Of a stretch of 44,538 nucleotides of DNA, positions 5,317 to 18,411 are shown in pieces; the first letter of the stretch is position 1, and each line of letters opens with the position of its first letter. This DNA comes from Terriglobales bacterium. Its GTDB lineage: Bacteria; Acidobacteriota; Terriglobia; Terriglobales; Acidobacteriaceae. The DNA lies in assembly GCA_035937135.1 (NCBI GenBank), contig DASYVL010000038.1, positions 1-44,538 of the forward strand, given 5' to 3'. Both the position numbers and the translations under genes were made by a program. Under the pieces are notes generated by a model, which was not told the origin of the DNA, searched no databases, and saw nothing but the letters and a program-made list of their open reading frames with translations.

Positions 5317-7569
5317 ATGGCACGCTTTCCTTTCCTACAACGCGGCAACCTCGCCGACCACGCCCGCGAGCTCAGCCTGACCACCTACACGCCTGCCATC
5401 GCCCTGGAGAACCTCCTCACCGGCGTGGACAACGTGCGGCACGACGTCTTCCTCAGCCCGCGCTTCACCGAGGTGGCCCGCCTGCACATTGCCAAGCTCA
5501 TCACCAAGTACGGGAACGTGGAGGAGTTAGTGGCGGAAGATGCGTTCGTCTCGCGTAGCCCCGTCGGCGGCCCCGGCCAGGTGGGCGCAAGCGACAAGAT
5601 GAAGGCGCTCAAGACCGCCGACCCCGCCGACTTCAAGCGCATGCTGGCTGACCTGCAGGTGATGGCGGTCAACCGCGCTAAGGCGGACGGCAATCTTTCC
5701 CTGGACCTGCTGGCGCGCCTCGCCGTCCTCAAGTTCCAGCGGACGGAACTGTCGGCGCAGTTCGCCCAGGTGATGGAGCGCTGCCGCGCCAAGCTGAAGA
5801 GCTACGAAGGTCCGCGGCAGACGGCGCAGCAGAGGGGGGTGGAGCTGCGCGAGCGCTTCGCGCAGTTCCAGGTGAGCAAGCGTGCGGTGCTACGCCGCGC
5901 CGGACAGGAGCTGTTCGAGACCCTGCGCGAGATCGAGAAGGAGACGCTCAGCAAGATGCGGCGCTCGCTCTTCGGCGAGGCCGGCGCCAGCGCCTACGAC
6001 CTCTTCCTCAACCGGCTGCTGTTCACCGAGGACGGCCGCGACGACTACCTGAATGCCGAGCACTACGTCATGCTGGGCAACTTCGAGCGCGACCCTGACC
6101 GCTTCCACATCATGCTGGAGATCGCCTTGGGCTTCCTCAAGTCCCTGAACCTCACCTCGGACGGCGGAGAGGAGGCCGCGCTCGACGCCTACCTCAGCGC
6201 CCCCGAAAATGCCCAGGAGCTGGTGGCCGGCGGCGCGCCGGATGAATCCACCCCGCGCGGCAAGGGGCAAAAGGCGCTGCTGGCGGCCTGGCTCGAGGCT
6301 CTGGAGCGCGGGGCCGTCATGGACAACGTGGTCGCTTCCTATGAGTCTGTTCCCCTTCTGGCCCAGTACTCGCCTCCCATCAACGCGCAGCAGCTCAAGA
6401 ACGCCCTCATCTCCCGCACCGAACGCAAGCGCGTGGAGACCCTGCTCGAGGGACATGGCAAGATCTCTCCCGACGCTCTGCACTCCGCCGTCAAGCGCAT
6501 GGGGAGCTGCAAAGGCGCGGAGCGAGCCAAGATGGCGGGACGCTTCCTCAACGACTTCATGCGCTACCACCGCGACCTGCGCCGCCTGGAGGCCATCAAC
6601 TCCGCCCTGGATAGCGTCAACGTCATCGGCAACGAGAAGCTGCGCCAGCTTTCCGCCATCAATAACACTCTCTACGAGTTCCCGCTCTCCGAGGAGCAGC
6701 GGCCGGCCGAGGACCGGGTGCTGCGCCACGTCATCCTGAAGGCCGACATCCGCGAATCCACCGCCATGACTCGCAGCCTGTTCGAGCGCGGGCTGAACCC
6801 CGCTTCCTACTTCAGCCTGAACTTTTATGACCACGTGAACAAGCTGCTGCCCAAGTACGGTGCCGTCAAGGTCTTCATCGAGGGCGACGCCGTCATCCTG
6901 GCGCTGTTCGAAAGGGAAGGGGAGGCGGGCTTCGGGGTGGCCCGCACCTGCGTGCTGGCCAAGGAGATCACCGAGATCGTCTCGGCCTACAACGAGCAGT
7001 CGCGCAAGGCCGGCCTGCCGACTCTGGAACTGGGCATGGGCATCGCCTTCGAGGATTCCCCCCCCATGTACCTGATGGATGGCTCCACCCGCATCATGAT
7101 CTCACCCGCGGTCAACGAGAGCGACCGCCTCTCCTCCTGCACCAAGGGAGCGCGCAAGCACCTCGCCGCCACTCCTACGCTCTTCAACGTCTATTCCTTC
7201 CAGACGGTCGAGGACGCCGACACCGGTGGCATGCCCGACGAGTTCCTGATGCGTTACAACATCGGCGGCATTCACATCAACGAGGCCGCCTTCGCCAAGC
7301 TGACCCAGGAGATCTCCCTGCAGTCCCACGACCTGGAGATCCCCACCCTCTGGGACAAGGAGGTGGTGCGCCTGTACAGCGGCATGGTGCCGGTGGCCTC
7401 CGGGGCGTTCCACCGGCTGGTGGTGCGCGAGGGCCGCATCGCCTTCATCGACGCGCGCGAGTTCTCCCTCAAGCGCTGGACCGACCGCCGCTACTATGAG
7501 GTCTGCGTCAATCCCACCCTCTACGAATACGTGCAGGGCGGCCGCTCCACCGCCGCGGCGGCTTCCTGA
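5317..7569 (+). CDS. Uncharacterised 750-aa protein with divergent class III nucleotidyl-cyclase domain
   Basis: Residues 1-465 are mostly charged helix with no family I recognise and no membrane segment. Residues about 468-640 look like a class III adenylate/guanylate cyclase domain. ADIRESTAMT carries Asp477 and EGDAVILALF carries Asp524, at the spacing of the two metal-binding Asp residues. AVNESDRL supplies the Asn600-x3-Arg604 pair that stabilises the transition state in known cyclases. The position that normally holds the adenine-selecting Lys is Phe520, and no Asp is seen at the partner position near 593. The last 110 residues are unassigned. It is followed by a 20-base direct duplication of its own 3' end. 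The start has no clear ribosome site. I am confident of the fold resemblance and unsure of activity and product. Confidence 0.65.
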   Translation: MARFPFLQRGNLADHARELSLTTYTPAIALENLLTGVDNVRHDVFLSPRFTEVARLHIAKLITKYGNVEELVAEDAFVSRSPVGGPGQVGASDKMKALKTADPADFKRMLADLQVMAVNRAKADGNLSLDLLARLAVLKFQRTELSAQFAQVMERCRAKLKSYEGPRQTAQQRGVELRERFAQFQVSKRAVLRRAGQELFETLREIEKETLSKMRRSLFGEAGASAYDLFLNRLLFTEDGRDDYLNAEHYVMLGNFERDPDRFHIMLEIALGFLKSLNLTSDGGEEAALDAYLSAPENAQELVAGGAPDESTPRGKGQKALLAAWLEALERGAVMDNVVASYESVPLLAQYSPPINAQQLKNALISRTERKRVETLLEGHGKISPDALHSAVKRMGSCKGAERAKMAGRFLNDFMRYHRDLRRLEAINSALDSVNVIGNEKLRQLSAINNTLYEFPLSEEQRPAEDRVLRHVILKADIRESTAMTRSLFERGLNPASYFSLNFYDHVNKLLPKYGAVKVFIEGDAVILALFEREGEAGFGVARTCVLAKEITEIVSAYNEQSRKAGLPTLELGMGIAFEDSPPMYLMDGSTRIMISPAVNESDRLSSCTKGARKHLAATPTLFNVYSFQTVEDADTGGMPDEFLMRYNIGGIHINEAAFAKLTQEISLQSHDLEIPTLWDKEVVRLYSGMVPVASGAFHRLVVREGRIAFIDAREFSLKRWTDRRYYEVCVNPTLYEYVQGGRSTAAAAS

Positions 7570-13124: not shown

Positions 13125-14534
13125 CTACGCCGCCCCGCGCGGCTGGACAACGCCCAACATGATTTGAAACAGCACCAGATACCGCTTGAGGTTGGTAGTG
13201 ATCAGGAAATTCTCCTTTACGTGCTCGCGTCCGTTCTTTCCCAGCTGCTGGGCAAACTCGGGATGGGTGAGCAGGTAGCGCAACTGGTAGGCGCAACCCT
13301 CCACCGAGTGCACCAGCGCGCCGGTCAGCTTGTGCACCACCTGCGTCGGGATGCCGCCCACGGCCCCGGCGATCACCGGCTTGCTCTTCCACAGCGCCTC
13401 GGTCACCGTCAGCCCGAATCCCTCTTTCAGTGACTTCTGCACCACCACGGTCGAGATGCGCTGCAGCGCGTTGATCTCCAGCGCGCACCACGGCGGCAGA
13501 TTGAGGATGATGACGTCCGGGTCGTCGCCCACCGCCTCCCGCACCTCCTGCAAGACTGCCGCGCCTTCGGGATCGTCGGAGGCGCTGCCCCCGGCCAGCA
13601 CCAACTGGCAGTCCACATACTTCTTCGCCAGCTTGTAAGCCTGCACCACGCCCACCGGGTCCTTCAATCGGTCGAAGCGCGAGACCTGCGTGATGACCGG
13701 CCGCGAGCGGTCGATGCCAAAGTCGTCGCAGATCTTCTCCAGGTAGCTCTCCTCCAGCTCCTTGTTCTTGTCCGACAGCGGATCGATGCAGGGATAAAAA
13801 AGATACTGCGGGATGCTCAGCTGCCGGGTAAAGGACGGCGAGGAGAAGATGGCGGCGTCGAACTGTTCCACCAGCGGGCACAGGAAGTCCCACACCCCGG
13901 CGTGCGGGCTGGAAAGGTCGATGTGGCAGCGCCAGATCCAGCGCCCGTGGCTCGCCTCCTTGGAGCGCACCAGCCCCGCTGGCTGCGGGTCGTGGATGAC
14001 GATCAGGTCCTCCCCGAACTCCATCCGCTGCCGGTTCTGCTCGTTGTACATGAGGAAGACGTCGAGCGCCTGCTGGGTCAGGTTGTAGTCGGCGCCGTGC
14101 AGCGCGTTGTGAAATCCTTTCGTGACTTCGAAGAAATCGTTGCCGCCGGTGATCACCTCCCACTTGGTGCGCACCTCCACCTCGTTCATCAGCGGGACCA
14201 GGCGGTTCAGGATCTCGGCCACCCCGCCGCCCACCGCCGTGGAGTTCACCATCTTCACCGTCTTGCCGCGCAGGCTGGCCGCCAAGAAGCGCAGCTCGTC
14301 CAGCTCTGGCCTGCCGATAATGGGCTCGTAATCGTCCAGCCGCGGCGGAGGCGACGGCGCGGGCGGAGTCTCGGAGATGCGCGGTGCCCGGCGCCGCTCC
14401 CGCCGCACGACCTCTGCCGGTTGGGGAGCGGGCGCCTCCACCGGCGATGGGGAAGCAATGGACGAAGACGAGGGCGGGGAACTCTTCCGCTGTTTGGCGG
14501 CGGGCTTCGGAGCGGCTGGCTTGCGCCGGGTCAT
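13125..14534 (-). CDS. GT4 glycosyltransferase, TreT-like trehalose synthase
   Basis: A 469-residue retaining glycosyltransferase. After a low-complexity Lys/Ala/Pro/Ser-rich N-terminus of about 85 residues comes MVNSTAVGGGVAEILNRL, then KWEVITGGNDFFEVTKGFHN, the segment that marks TreT-type trehalose synthases. The C-terminal Rossmann half has KEGFGLTVTEALW, the E-x7-E motif that binds the nucleotide sugar, followed by VIAGAVGGIP. TreT joins NDP-glucose and glucose to give trehalose in one step. The ATG at 14534 overlaps the stop of the upstream DUF5752-like gene by four bases, which decides this start over a longer frame. It is the last gene of the trehalose operon. Related enzymes may use other acceptors, so the product is inferred from motif and context. 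Confidence 0.8.
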   Translation of the reverse strand: MTRRKPAAPKPAAKQRKSSPPSSSSIASPSPVEAPAPQPAEVVRRERRRAPRISETPPAPSPPPRLDDYEPIIGRPELDELRFLAASLRGKTVKMVNSTAVGGGVAEILNRLVPLMNEVEVRTKWEVITGGNDFFEVTKGFHNALHGADYNLTQQALDVFLMYNEQNRQRMEFGEDLIVIHDPQPAGLVRSKEASHGRWIWRCHIDLSSPHAGVWDFLCPLVEQFDAAIFSSPSFTRQLSIPQYLFYPCIDPLSDKNKELEESYLEKICDDFGIDRSRPVITQVSRFDRLKDPVGVVQAYKLAKKYVDCQLVLAGGSASDDPEGAAVLQEVREAVGDDPDVIILNLPPWCALEINALQRISTVVVQKSLKEGFGLTVTEALWKSKPVIAGAVGGIPTQVVHKLTGALVHSVEGCAYQLRYLLTHPEFAQQLGKNGREHVKENFLITTNLKRYLVLFQIMLGVVQPRGAA

Positions 14535-15226
14535 GGCGCACTCCTGGCGATTTCCTGCTGCACCATCTGCAGGATCTTGGCGCGCACGTCGTTCAGCGTG
14601 GCCGTGTAGATGTCGATGCGGTTCAACCGGGCCCCCAACGAAGCCAGGTCCAGGTCCTTCTCCAGCCAGGTTGAGAAGTCGTTCCGGGTCAGCGGGGGCC
14701 GCAGCCGCGCCGTGATGAAGTGGTGATGGATGCTGTGCAGGCTCACCCGCTGCAGGCATTCCGCGAACTCCTCCAGATTGCCGGCCACGAATGACGTGGG
14801 CGTCACCACCGTCTCCGAGAGGCAGAAATAGAACGGCTCGAACGCGGGGCGCACGGCCGCCGCCGGGTTCCGCTTCAGGTGCTCCTCGATCGCGGCCACG
14901 ATCCGCTCCCGCAGTTCCCCCAGGGTGGTGAAGTCACGCACGTCCACGGCCGCCAGCCGCTCCGCCAGTTCGATCTCGTTGCACGCTGCGAACACCCACT
15001 GGGCAAAGTCGTTGGAAAACCCGCCACGGATGTAGTGATGCTCCCGCAGCGTTTGGAAGGTGTGGTGGAAGATGGAAGCATCCGGACAGCGCTTCAAGTT
15101 TTCCAGCAGTTCCGCCAGGTTGGTGGCCCGCTCGCGCCCGATGCGCGTCAGGTGAGACTCCGAGTTGAAGTAGAAGGGCGTGCGCGCCGTCCGTGCGCCG
15201 ACAGTGGTGGGTAGTGTGGTTGCCAT
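14531..15226 (-). CDS. DUF5752-like protein in trehalose operon
   Basis: A 231-residue soluble protein, probably of the DUF5752 family. Visible segments are PFYFNSESHLTRIGRERATNL, then FHHTFQTLREHHYI, FSNDFAQWVFAACNE and HSIHHHFITARLRPPLTRNDF. His and aromatic residues are plentiful, but there is no known catalytic motif. Helices dominate. It lies six bases after otsB and overlaps the TreT-like gene by four bases, so it is translated with both. I infer an accessory or regulatory role for the neighbouring glycosyltransferase. The family name is from memory of the pattern and should be confirmed. Confidence 0.7.
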   Translation of the reverse strand: MATTLPTTVGARTARTPFYFNSESHLTRIGRERATNLAELLENLKRCPDASIFHHTFQTLREHHYIRGGFSNDFAQWVFAACNEIELAERLAAVDVRDFTTLGELRERIVAAIEEHLKRNPAAAVRPAFEPFYFCLSETVVTPTSFVAGNLEEFAECLQRVSLHSIHHHFITARLRPPLTRNDFSTWLEKDLDLASLGARLNRIDIYTATLNDVRAKILQMVQQEIARSAP

Positions 15227-15232
15227 CCTGAG

Positions 15233-16123
15233 CTAAGCTCCTCGCAACCGGGGTTCATTCCTGCGCTCTACGGAGTCCGGGGCCCGCTTCTTGTTCTGAT
15301 GCTCTTGGCGGCGGCTGTTGCCCCGGCCAACCGGGATCCTGGCGGTCATCTCCATCTCCAGCTTTTCGAGAAACGACCGCACCTCAATCGGATTCCGCAG
15401 CCGGAAGTGGGCCCGCGTCCGCCGCGGCCGGCCTACGCGCACCGTCAGTTCGCCGCGCAGCGCCGCGAACGCGCGCTCATCGGAGACGTCGTCCCCAATG
15501 AAAATAGAAAGGGTCGGTCGCGGCAGCTCCTCTAGCAGCCGGCACACCGCCACCCCCTTGCCGCCCAGCTCTCGGGGCAACACCTCCCAGACCTTTCTTC
15601 CCGCCAGCACGCGCAGGTCGGGTTGCAGCCACTCCAGGGTCTCGCGGACGATGGGCCGCGCCCGCCGCGCCGTGGAGACCGAGGCGCCGCGATAGTGCAC
15701 CACGAACACCGGACCCTTGTCCTCGATCCAGATGCCCGGCAAGCCGCGCAGGCGCTCGGCCAGCATCCTGCGCGCCAGGCGCATCAGCCGCCGCGTGCCG
15801 GGTCGGGCCGAGGCGCCGTCGCCATGCTCCCAGCCGTGCAGTCCCAGGTACCGCGCCCCCGGCACGTTCACTCGTCTGCGCAGGTCCGCGCGCCGCCGCC
15901 CGCTGATCAGGACCAACGTCACCCGGGGATGCCGCGCCAGCCGTTGCAGTAGGCGCTGGCCGGAATCGTCCAGCCACACCTCTTCCGGGCGCGCGCGCAG
16001 CGGGACGAGCGACCCGTCGAAATCCAGAAAGACGGCCAGATGGCGGGCGGCGCGCAGGCGCCGGCGCACGGTCGCCCAGTGGTCGAACAAGGACTGCGGA
16101 GTGGTGTCGCGCATCGGCGTCAC
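15233..16123 (-). CDS. otsB: Trehalose-6-phosphate phosphatase OtsB
   Basis: A 296-residue HAD-superfamily phosphatase that removes phosphate from trehalose 6-phosphate. The catalytic motif FLDFDGSLVP gives the nucleophile Asp34 and acid/base Asp36. Motif II is VLISGRRR, the trehalose-phosphatase cap follows (YLGLHGWEHGDG), then the Lys motif GGKGVAV and the magnesium motif FIGDDVSDERAF. The GTG start at 16123 overlaps the otsA stop as GTGA, and an ATG three codons later is a possible alternative. The C-terminal 50 residues, rich in Arg and Asn, are unusual and probably disordered. Function is secure from motifs and from its position behind otsA. Confidence 0.93.
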   Translation of the reverse strand: MTPMRDTTPQSLFDHWATVRRRLRAARHLAVFLDFDGSLVPLRARPEEVWLDDSGQRLLQRLARHPRVTLVLISGRRRADLRRRVNVPGARYLGLHGWEHGDGASARPGTRRLMRLARRMLAERLRGLPGIWIEDKGPVFVVHYRGASVSTARRARPIVRETLEWLQPDLRVLAGRKVWEVLPRELGGKGVAVCRLLEELPRPTLSIFIGDDVSDERAFAALRGELTVRVGRPRRTRAHFRLRNPIEVRSFLEKLEMEMTARIPVGRGNSRRQEHQNKKRAPDSVERRNEPRLRGA

Positions 16124-18411
16124 ATTCCGCCCATTCCGCCGCCGCTCCTCGCGTGTGCCTTGGTGCTCTCCGGGGGCTCGATCCGCAGGTCCGCCAGCTC
16201 CGAGATCAGGTTCCCGGCCCAGCGATAGATGTTGTATTCCTTCACCACTCGCCGCATGCGCTGCATGCGCGCCTTCTTCTCCGGCGTGTCCATCTCCAGG
16301 CCCAGACGGATGGCGTCCGCCAGCTCCTCGGAGTCGTACGGGTTCACCACCAGCGCGTCACGCAGTTCGCGGCCGGCGCCGGTGAAGCGGCTCAGGATCA
16401 GTACGCCTTGTTCATCCTGTCGCGCCGCCACGAATTCCTTGGCCACCAGATTCATCCCGTCGTGCAGGGAAGTCACCATGCACAGGTCCGCCGCCCGGTA
16501 GAACGGCAGGATCTCCTGATGACTGTGGTGCCACTTGCGCAGCACGATGGGCTTCCACTTGCCGTTCTGGAAGCGCGCGTTGACGCGCTCGGCCTCGGCG
16601 GCGACCTGGTCGAACAGATCGTGATAGCGCTTGATCTCCGTGCGGCTGGGCGCGCCGATCTGCACGAACGTGAACTGTCCCAGATATACCGGATACTTCT
16701 CAAAAAAGCGCTCGATGCCGCAGAAGCGCTCCAGAATGCCCTTGGTGTAGTCCACCCGGTCCACGCCCACCCCCAGGCGGGTCGCTCCGTTGTTGCCCAG
16801 CTCCGCGAACACCGCGGCGCGCTCCGCTGCGAGCACGTTCGAGGGCGTCGGCGTCGGCGCAGGCTCCGCGAAGTCCACGCTGATGGGGAAGGGCAGCACC
16901 ACCGAGCGGTGACCCTCGCGCTGCACCGAGAAGCGCTCCCAGGAGATGCGCGACTCCAAGACGCGGTCCACCGTTTCCAGAAAGTTGTTGCAGTGCGCCT
17001 GGATGTGGAAGCCCAGCAGGTCGGCGCCCAGCATGCCGCCCAGCAGCTCGCGCTGCCACGGGCAGATGCCGAAGGCCTCCGGGTTCGGCCAGGGGATGTG
17101 CCAGAAGAGGGCTACGCGCGCCTCCGGGCGCCGCTTCTTCACCATTCGGGGCAGCAGCGCGAAGTGATAGTCCTGCACCAGCAGAAAGGGCTGCTCGGCG
17201 CCCTCCATCTCCTCCAGGACGACGTCGGCGAACTTCCGGTTCACCGCCTGATACTGCTCCCAGTCCGCCGCGCGGAAGGTGGGACGCGTATGCGCGATGT
17301 GGCACAGCGGCCACAGACCCTCGTTGGCGAAGCCGAAGTAGTAGCCCTGTTCCTCCTCCTTGGTCAGCCACACCCGCCGCAAGGTGTAGTGCGGGTCATC
17401 CGGAGGGACGCGCAGCCTCGCGTGCTCGTCCACCATTGTCCGGTCGGCATCCCCGCTGCCGTGCGCGATCCACGTCCCCTCGCTGGCGCGCAGGATGGGC
17501 TCCAGCGCCGTCACCAGGCCGCTGGCCGGAACAATCGTTTCCACCGTCCTGCCGTTGATCCGGTGCATGTATGGTTCGCGGTTGGAGACCACCAGCAAAC
17601 GGTTGCCTTGCAGCTTCTTAAGAACGTGAGCGGAAAGTTTCTCCGCCGTCCAAGTCGCGTCCGCGGTCTCGCGCAGCCGCGCCTCTTTTGCCGCCGTCTC
17701 CTTGGCCGCATCCAGGCTCCGCGCGAAACTAGCCACCTCCTTCGCCAAGGGTTCCAGCAGGGTCCCGTCCGGAAGAGCCATTTGTTTGGTCGCCCCTCCG
17801 GTGCGAAGCGCTCTCATCCATTGCGCGGTTTGCTTGATCGGTTCCACAATGCTCCAGCGGATGACCAGCAGCGCCGTGAGCGCGATCAACAGCACTCGCA
17901 GCAGGACACCTAAGGAGGCGTCCCGCCAGATGCGGGACTTCTGAGCGTCGATGTAGCTGGCATCCTCCACCACCGCAAGCACGCCGGCGCGGCCCGCGGC
18001 CTGCCCCGGCAGCACGTAAACGTACACTCGCGACTGTTCCAGCCACAGGAACTCGCCCCTCCCCTGGCTCTCCGCCTTCGCCTTCACCAGGCTGGATAGC
18101 GGAACCGCCAATTGCGTCGCCATGCCCGGCGTTAGGGCCTGCGATATGCCTTGCGAGTCGAAGAGCGCAACTCCCGAGACGTGCTCACCCTTCGCCAGGC
18201 GCTGGACTAATCGCTGAAGTTCCTCCCGGGAACCGGCCTTGGCCTGGGTCGGCAGGTCATCCTGCATGCGTTCGGCTGCTCCCGCGGTACTCCTCTCCAG
18301 GTCCGCCAGCAGACGATGCTCGTCGGCGCGCACCTCCAGGTACGCCAGCGCGAACGTGACCAGGGTGATTCCCGCCACCAGCCAGAGAATCGGACGTAGG
18401 CTCAATTTCAT
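16120..18411 (-). CDS. otsA: Trehalose-6-phosphate synthase OtsA fused to membrane sensor-like N-terminus
   Basis: A 763-residue protein, against about 470 for a standard OtsA. Residues 8-26 form a first membrane helix, 27-164 a predicted periplasmic domain, 166-185 a second helix, and 186-240 a HAMP-like linker (VEPIKQTAQWMRALRTGG) running into a coiled coil. The GT20 catalytic domain begins near 271. Its conserved residues are visible: VVSNREPY, VQDYHFALLP, FWHIPWPNPEAFG, VDRVDYTKGILER, and SLHDGMNLVAKEFVA with the Asp and Glu that hold UDP-glucose. It makes trehalose 6-phosphate from UDP-glucose and glucose 6-phosphate, here at the inner membrane face. The architecture copies that of a chemoreceptor or sensor kinase with the output replaced by OtsA. 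It is the first gene of the four-gene operon. Confidence 0.92.
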   Translation of the reverse strand: MKLSLRPILWLVAGITLVTFALAYLEVRADEHRLLADLERSTAGAAERMQDDLPTQAKAGSREELQRLVQRLAKGEHVSGVALFDSQGISQALTPGMATQLAVPLSSLVKAKAESQGRGEFLWLEQSRVYVYVLPGQAAGRAGVLAVVEDASYIDAQKSRIWRDASLGVLLRVLLIALTALLVIRWSIVEPIKQTAQWMRALRTGGATKQMALPDGTLLEPLAKEVASFARSLDAAKETAAKEARLRETADATWTAEKLSAHVLKKLQGNRLLVVSNREPYMHRINGRTVETIVPASGLVTALEPILRASEGTWIAHGSGDADRTMVDEHARLRVPPDDPHYTLRRVWLTKEEEQGYYFGFANEGLWPLCHIAHTRPTFRAADWEQYQAVNRKFADVVLEEMEGAEQPFLLVQDYHFALLPRMVKKRRPEARVALFWHIPWPNPEAFGICPWQRELLGGMLGADLLGFHIQAHCNNFLETVDRVLESRISWERFSVQREGHRSVVLPFPISVDFAEPAPTPTPSNVLAAERAAVFAELGNNGATRLGVGVDRVDYTKGILERFCGIERFFEKYPVYLGQFTFVQIGAPSRTEIKRYHDLFDQVAAEAERVNARFQNGKWKPIVLRKWHHSHQEILPFYRAADLCMVTSLHDGMNLVAKEFVAARQDEQGVLILSRFTGAGRELRDALVVNPYDSEELADAIRLGLEMDTPEKKARMQRMRRVVKEYNIYRWAGNLISELADLRIEPPESTKAHARSGGGMGGM

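Follow-up and report, generated by a model that had tools for sequence, protein, structure and literature searches.

Base choice in class III cyclases has long been read from one lysine and one aspartate or threonine; pyrimidine cyclases then showed that there are other pockets and other messengers. The gene considered here raises the question of whether a further pocket exists in an ordinary chromosomal gene, and what it would read. It lies in a window of 44,538 nucleotides (the whole stretch of DNA that was analysed) from a Terriglobales bacterium. A preliminary description, made from the letters alone, saw in its product a divergent class III cyclase domain, and envisaged either an active enzyme with a shifted base preference or a degenerate nucleotide sensor. 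We compared this protein with its homologues, with known cyclases and with predicted and experimental structures, and the outcome is that it is most likely a class III nucleotidyl cyclase of a new family. The protein family carries no cyclase label in any of the libraries searched, and no paper on it was found in the open-access literature searched.

The open reading frame first described proved exact in its limits, strand and start codon (Table 1). The 750-residue product is soluble and probably cytosolic; its highest 19-residue hydropathy mean is 1.25, and no transmembrane segment is evident. Searches against Pfam, NCBIfam and PDB sequences gave no convincing match; those to Hda_lid, PmtA (NF045881) and similar Pfam or NCBIfam models were set aside as chance, being below cut-off and scattered.

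Table 1. Position of the cyclase-family gene in the window, with the domains and motifs of its product
Feature	Position	Strand	Details
Cyclase-family protein gene	5317..7569	+	ATG start, 750 aa
N-terminal all-helical module, residues 1-455	5317..6681	+	AF2 pLDDT 92.5, pTM 0.89
Class III cyclase-fold domain, about residues 446-736	6652..7524	+	Foldseek E 7e-7, VIA Z 16.1, hhalign 96.6%
K475-A-D477-I-R479-E-S481, first metal Asp	6739..6759	+	K475, D477, R479, S481 148/148
K518-V-F520-I-E522-G-D524, second metal Asp	6868..6888	+	F520, E522, G523, D524 148/148
I593-M-I-S-P-A-V-N600-E-S-D-R604, transition-state Asn/Arg	7093..7128	+	N600, R604 148/148; I593 145/148

A core gene of the Terriglobia

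Homologues, 750 to 835 aa long, were found in 27 of 61 related genomes. Across the class Terriglobia (Acidobacteriota), 116 of 399 genomes carry the gene, and they span several families. A species-wide genome collection yielded 458 related stretches, the best 80 of which were all Acidobacteriota by title, and in a sample of the phylum strong matches occurred only in the window's own family, the remaining ones being weak. A mobile-element or phage origin was rejected, as the plasmids, phages and viral contigs searched held no match and neighbourhoods are stable; the gene is a conserved chromosomal core gene of Terriglobia.

In genomes related to that of the window, it usually follows the genes for MutY, AhpC/TSA, an amidohydrolase and an M28 peptidase and faces a TonB (TonB_C) gene; in f7, the largest of the other families, the genes before it are those for a SpoIIE phosphatase, an SDR, YjeF/NnrD and TsaE. 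The search for homologues and their neighbours, proposed at the outset as a check, thus places the gene in a conserved family, and the neighbours are housekeeping genes. No conserved effector, receptor or partner gene stands beside it, a statement that refers to conserved neighbours, individual non-conserved ones having been scanned in part. Each of the 16 genomes scanned for domains that bind cyclic nucleotides has them, whether or not it carries the family gene, and these domains therefore single out no receptor. A PF00211 cyclase is absent from 11 of the 28 family-bearing genomes scanned, in which the family gene was the only class III-like gene found.

Two other genes of the window may be recorded here. 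One, at 16120-18411 on the minus strand, encodes a glycosyltransferase of family 20 (trehalose-6-phosphate synthase type) whose N-terminus is extended by a fused segment, about 260 residues long, with the look of a membrane sensor with two helices; the other, at 13125-14759, is a trehalose synthase (TreT) gene.

A class III cyclase domain beyond the reach of family models

The cyclase fold was modelled with AlphaFold2 from 26 sequences (pLDDT 84.8). The best PDB matches found by Foldseek were class III cyclases, and so were all 50 VIA rows shown, with Z from 16.1 to 14.9 (top match, rmsd 2.9 over 173 aligned residues); soluble guanylate cyclase, RhGC and adenylate cyclases stood at Z of about 16. 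Homology was also detected between sequence profiles: a profile of 56 members aligned by hhalign with a profile of 13 canonical Acidobacteriota cyclases at E 6e-10 (probability in Table 1), while reversed profiles reached a probability of 0.2% and the N-terminal profile one of 0.1%. When the family profile was run against the whole genomes of the phylum sample, the five weak matches that fell in the cyclase region, each in another genome, were ordinary class III cyclases, recovered unprompted. The presence of a class III nucleotidyl cyclase domain, as first proposed, is confirmed by the agreement of predicted fold and profile homology, and no non-cyclase fold was seen.

None of the Pfam and NCBIfam cyclase models, PF00211 (Guanylate_cyc) included, detects the protein; PF00211 scored above its curated cut-off in 0 of 56 members, and in none in the genome search either. 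This failure measures divergence only, because a genuine pyrimidine cyclase (PycC, at locus L201 below) is missed by Pfam in the same way. The family shares its fold, the two metal aspartates, the Asn-x3-Arg motif and the motif spacing with class III adenylate and guanylate cyclases (PF00211; CyaC 1wc1, CyaB 3r5g, Cya2 2w01, Ma1120 4wp8), to which its profile is detectably homologous, but differs from them in its base-facing pocket and in its unrelated, helical N-terminus. The protein also has an extra residue in beta3, after Gly-Asp, that canonical enzymes lack. A nearly invariant, family-specific motif, LNPASYFSLNF (residues 493-503, positions 6793-6825), lies in the stretch that links helices one and two of the domain and is absent from the canonical cyclases fetched for comparison.

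Catalytic residues are invariant

Profile-profile alignment places Asp477 on the first metal aspartate, Asp524 on the second, and Asn600 and Arg604 on the Asn-x3-Arg motif. The spacings reported at the outset, 47 between the aspartates and 76 from Asp524 to Asn600 (80 to Arg604), were reproduced; canonical Acidobacteriota cyclases have the same motifs, with an Asp-Asp distance of 44 in one of them (L117). All four residues are conserved in every one of 148 homologues, which come from several families of the class and are related sequences rather than independent samples; Lys475, Arg479, Ser481, Phe520, Glu522, Gly523 and Ala525 are equally constant. Synonymous codons are mixed at all twelve positions checked, so that their invariance is held at the protein level. 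A phosphate-binding lysine is known from the C-terminal part of class III enzymes (Lys612 in CaGC; PMC7384201). The canonical VKGK motif was not seen in the 750-residue sequence, which counts against the reading as an active enzyme, as does the absence of a conserved partner or receptor gene beside it.

These data bear on the choice between enzyme and sensor, which the preliminary description had left open. A protein that binds NTP and metal without cyclising, and signals through its N-terminal helical module, would fit the strong divergence of the domain, the lack of an effector or receptor nearby and the large conserved N-terminal module, and binding without turnover could also account for residue invariance. 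Degenerate cyclase domains, however, usually lose one or more of the metal aspartates or of the Asn/Arg residues, whereas here the transition-state pair is as invariant as the metal pair. We consider a mere sensor improbable, and the two options as not equally likely: since metal and transition-state residues are wholly invariant, catalysis is favoured, and the family is likely to be a catalytically active class III cyclase.

A base-facing pocket of reversed polarity

In purine cyclases the base is usually held in a hydrophobic pocket and makes few polar contacts, lysine with aspartate or threonine selecting adenine and glutamate with cysteine or serine selecting guanine (PMC7384201; PMC4215837). 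At the four base-facing positions, 41 canonical cyclases have Phe (40/41), Lys (39/41), Val, Ile, Leu or Met (39/41) and Thr or Asp (38/41), whereas the family has Lys475, Phe520 and Glu522 without exception among the 148 sequences, and Ile593 in all but three, which have valine. Lys475, two residues before Asp477, faces the base by alignment; Glu522 is two before Asp524; and Ile593 is seven before Asn600, where canonical enzymes have Thr or Asp. As aligned, the polarity of the pocket is inverted, Lys/Phe/Glu/Ile standing against Phe/Lys/hydrophobic/Thr-Asp. Neither the adenylate cyclase pair (Lys with Asp or Thr) nor the guanylate cyclase pair (Glu with Cys, Ser or another residue) is present, Phe520 standing where the glutamate would be expected and Ile593 in place of the partner aspartate, whose absence had been noticed earlier.

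The register in beta2 deserves comment. In the hhalign alignment, anchored by Tyr514-Gly515 and Gly523-Asp524 at the spacing of canonical enzymes, Phe520 falls on the adenine-selecting lysine, as first reported; a HMMER alignment to one cyclase (L118) shifts the strand by one residue and puts Val519 there. The exact residue at this position is thus ambiguous by one in the alignments, with no lysine in either register. The earlier claim of non-canonical base-selecting positions therefore holds, and has been extended by the invariance of Lys475 and Glu522.

Such a pocket might still serve an ordinary adenylate or guanylate cyclase, with Lys475 (one strand away) or Lys518 replacing the missing lysine and cAMP or cGMP as the product. 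Class III positions do vary: Ma1120 is active with alanine for the transition-state asparagine, and the second position is occupied by many different residues among guanylate cyclases (PMC4215837). Moreover, the family profile is nearer to canonical cyclases than to PycC, and Lys475, being invariant and directed at the base by alignment, could itself contact adenine. Against this, all four base-facing positions have changed together, with no reversion in the 148 sequences; Glu522 puts a charge where purine cyclases are hydrophobic; and Lys518 is not invariant (136/148). We therefore regard a conventional cAMP or cGMP producer as rather unlikely, and base choice in the family as probably non-standard.

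Comparison with Pycsar cyclases

Base selection in pyrimidine cyclases uses positions equivalent to those of the family's pocket: Y50, D94 and R97 in BcPycC, F60, K104 and F109 in AnPycC, and F100, R142 and Q144 in EaPycC (PMC11224242). Relative to the metal aspartates, these are Asp1-2, Asp2-2 and Asp2+1 in BcPycC, Asp1-2, Asp2-2 and Asp2+3 in AnPycC, and Asp1-2, Asp2-4 and Asp2-2 in EaPycC. The class III fold is shared with PycC (BcPycC 7r65 of clade B, AnPycC 8jsz of clade D, EaPycC of clade E; VIA Z 14.9 to 7r65), and the Asp2-2 position, occupied by Glu522 in the family, is non-hydrophobic in all three (Asp94, Lys104 and Gln144, respectively). An acid at Glu522, as at Asp94 of BcPycC, points, though not conclusively, to a base that is pyrimidine-like or unusual in some other way.

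Could the protein then be a Pycsar-type antiphage pyrimidine cyclase? The PADLOC PycC models matched 41 of 56 members (best E 6e-5), and the acid at Asp2-2 is that of clade B. Four canonical cyclases of the phylum, used as a control, match the same models far better, however, and the hhalign probability of the family is 10.8% to clade B PycC against 96.6% to canonical cyclases, so the PADLOC matches were rejected as evidence for a pyrimidine cyclase and kept as evidence for the superfamily only. Tyr50 and Arg97 of BcPycC correspond to Lys475 and Ala525, leaving the acid alone in common, and the clade B proteins fetched have about 230 aa against 750-835. In Pycsar the effector gene is adjacent, whereas this chromosomal core gene has no CNBD-TIR or transmembrane effector among its conserved housekeeping neighbours, in either the MutY/AhpC/TSA/amidohydrolase/M28/TonB_C or the f7 arrangement, and was met on none of the plasmids or phages searched. 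A Pycsar role appears very improbable, and because of the low profile match to clade B and the better scores of canonical cyclases on the PycC models, the likeness of Glu522 to Asp94 is, within the limits of this comparison, better taken for a parallel than for a mark of common descent.

A clade B-type Pycsar operon does occur in another Acidobacteriota genome (G102, L201:538-2175), where a CNBD and CAP12/Pycsar TIR effector is followed by the 232-aa PycC without Pfam detection.

The N-terminal helical module

Folded alone with AlphaFold2, residues 1-455 give an almost wholly helical structure at high confidence (Table 1). Across 61 relatives, a motif G36-x-D38-N39-x-R/H-x-D43-x-x-L46-S47 is conserved. 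Foldseek found nothing in the PDB with E below 0.07, and the top VIA match had Z 6.3, which is uninformative for a helical bundle; 14-3-3-like, MUN-domain and designed helical proteins (Z <=6.3) were discarded as lying in the range of unrelated helical bundles. The earlier reading of a helical N-terminus of unknown type is in line with these results. The module is presumed, plausibly, to be regulatory or sensory; it may be an input domain of a new kind, and an already known fold is possible. In homologues from more distant families (L024-L027, L161-L200), an insert of about 60-80 residues, coiled-coil-like, lies near residues 280-330 of the window protein.

Proposed mechanism and significance

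The reading that we favour, with moderate confidence, is that of a competent class III cyclase of a new family whose base-reading pocket would have its polarity reversed. If it resembles the known class III enzymes, it would act as a head-to-tail homodimer. Asp477 and Asp524 of one protomer would hold two divalent metals on the triphosphate of the NTP; the partner protomer would supply Asn600 and Arg604 to stabilise the transition state during attack of the 3'-OH on the alpha phosphate, and the products would be a 3',5'-cyclic nucleotide and pyrophosphate. The base would be read by Lys475 and Glu522 against Phe520 and Ile593, instead of by Lys with Asp/Thr (ATP) or Glu with Cys/Ser (GTP). Since the polarity is reversed, neither ATP nor GTP, if recognised in the standard manner, is likely to be the preferred substrate; it may be a pyrimidine NTP, a pyrimidine product being possible from the nature of the pocket. 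Opening and closing of the dimer would probably be governed by the helical module, acting as the input.

More tentatively, the family may represent a housekeeping cyclase of Acidobacteriota, with a Lys/Glu pocket that evolved independently and an undescribed helical sensor, whose everyday messenger is neither cAMP nor cGMP but, for example, cUMP or cCMP, and serves outside phage defence. The family adds a further pocket, fully fixed, in a chromosomal core gene of Acidobacteriota from soil that the libraries searched do not label as a cyclase, together with an undescribed candidate input domain, and the identity of its product bears on whether cyclic nucleotides with bases other than purines have roles beyond phage defence.
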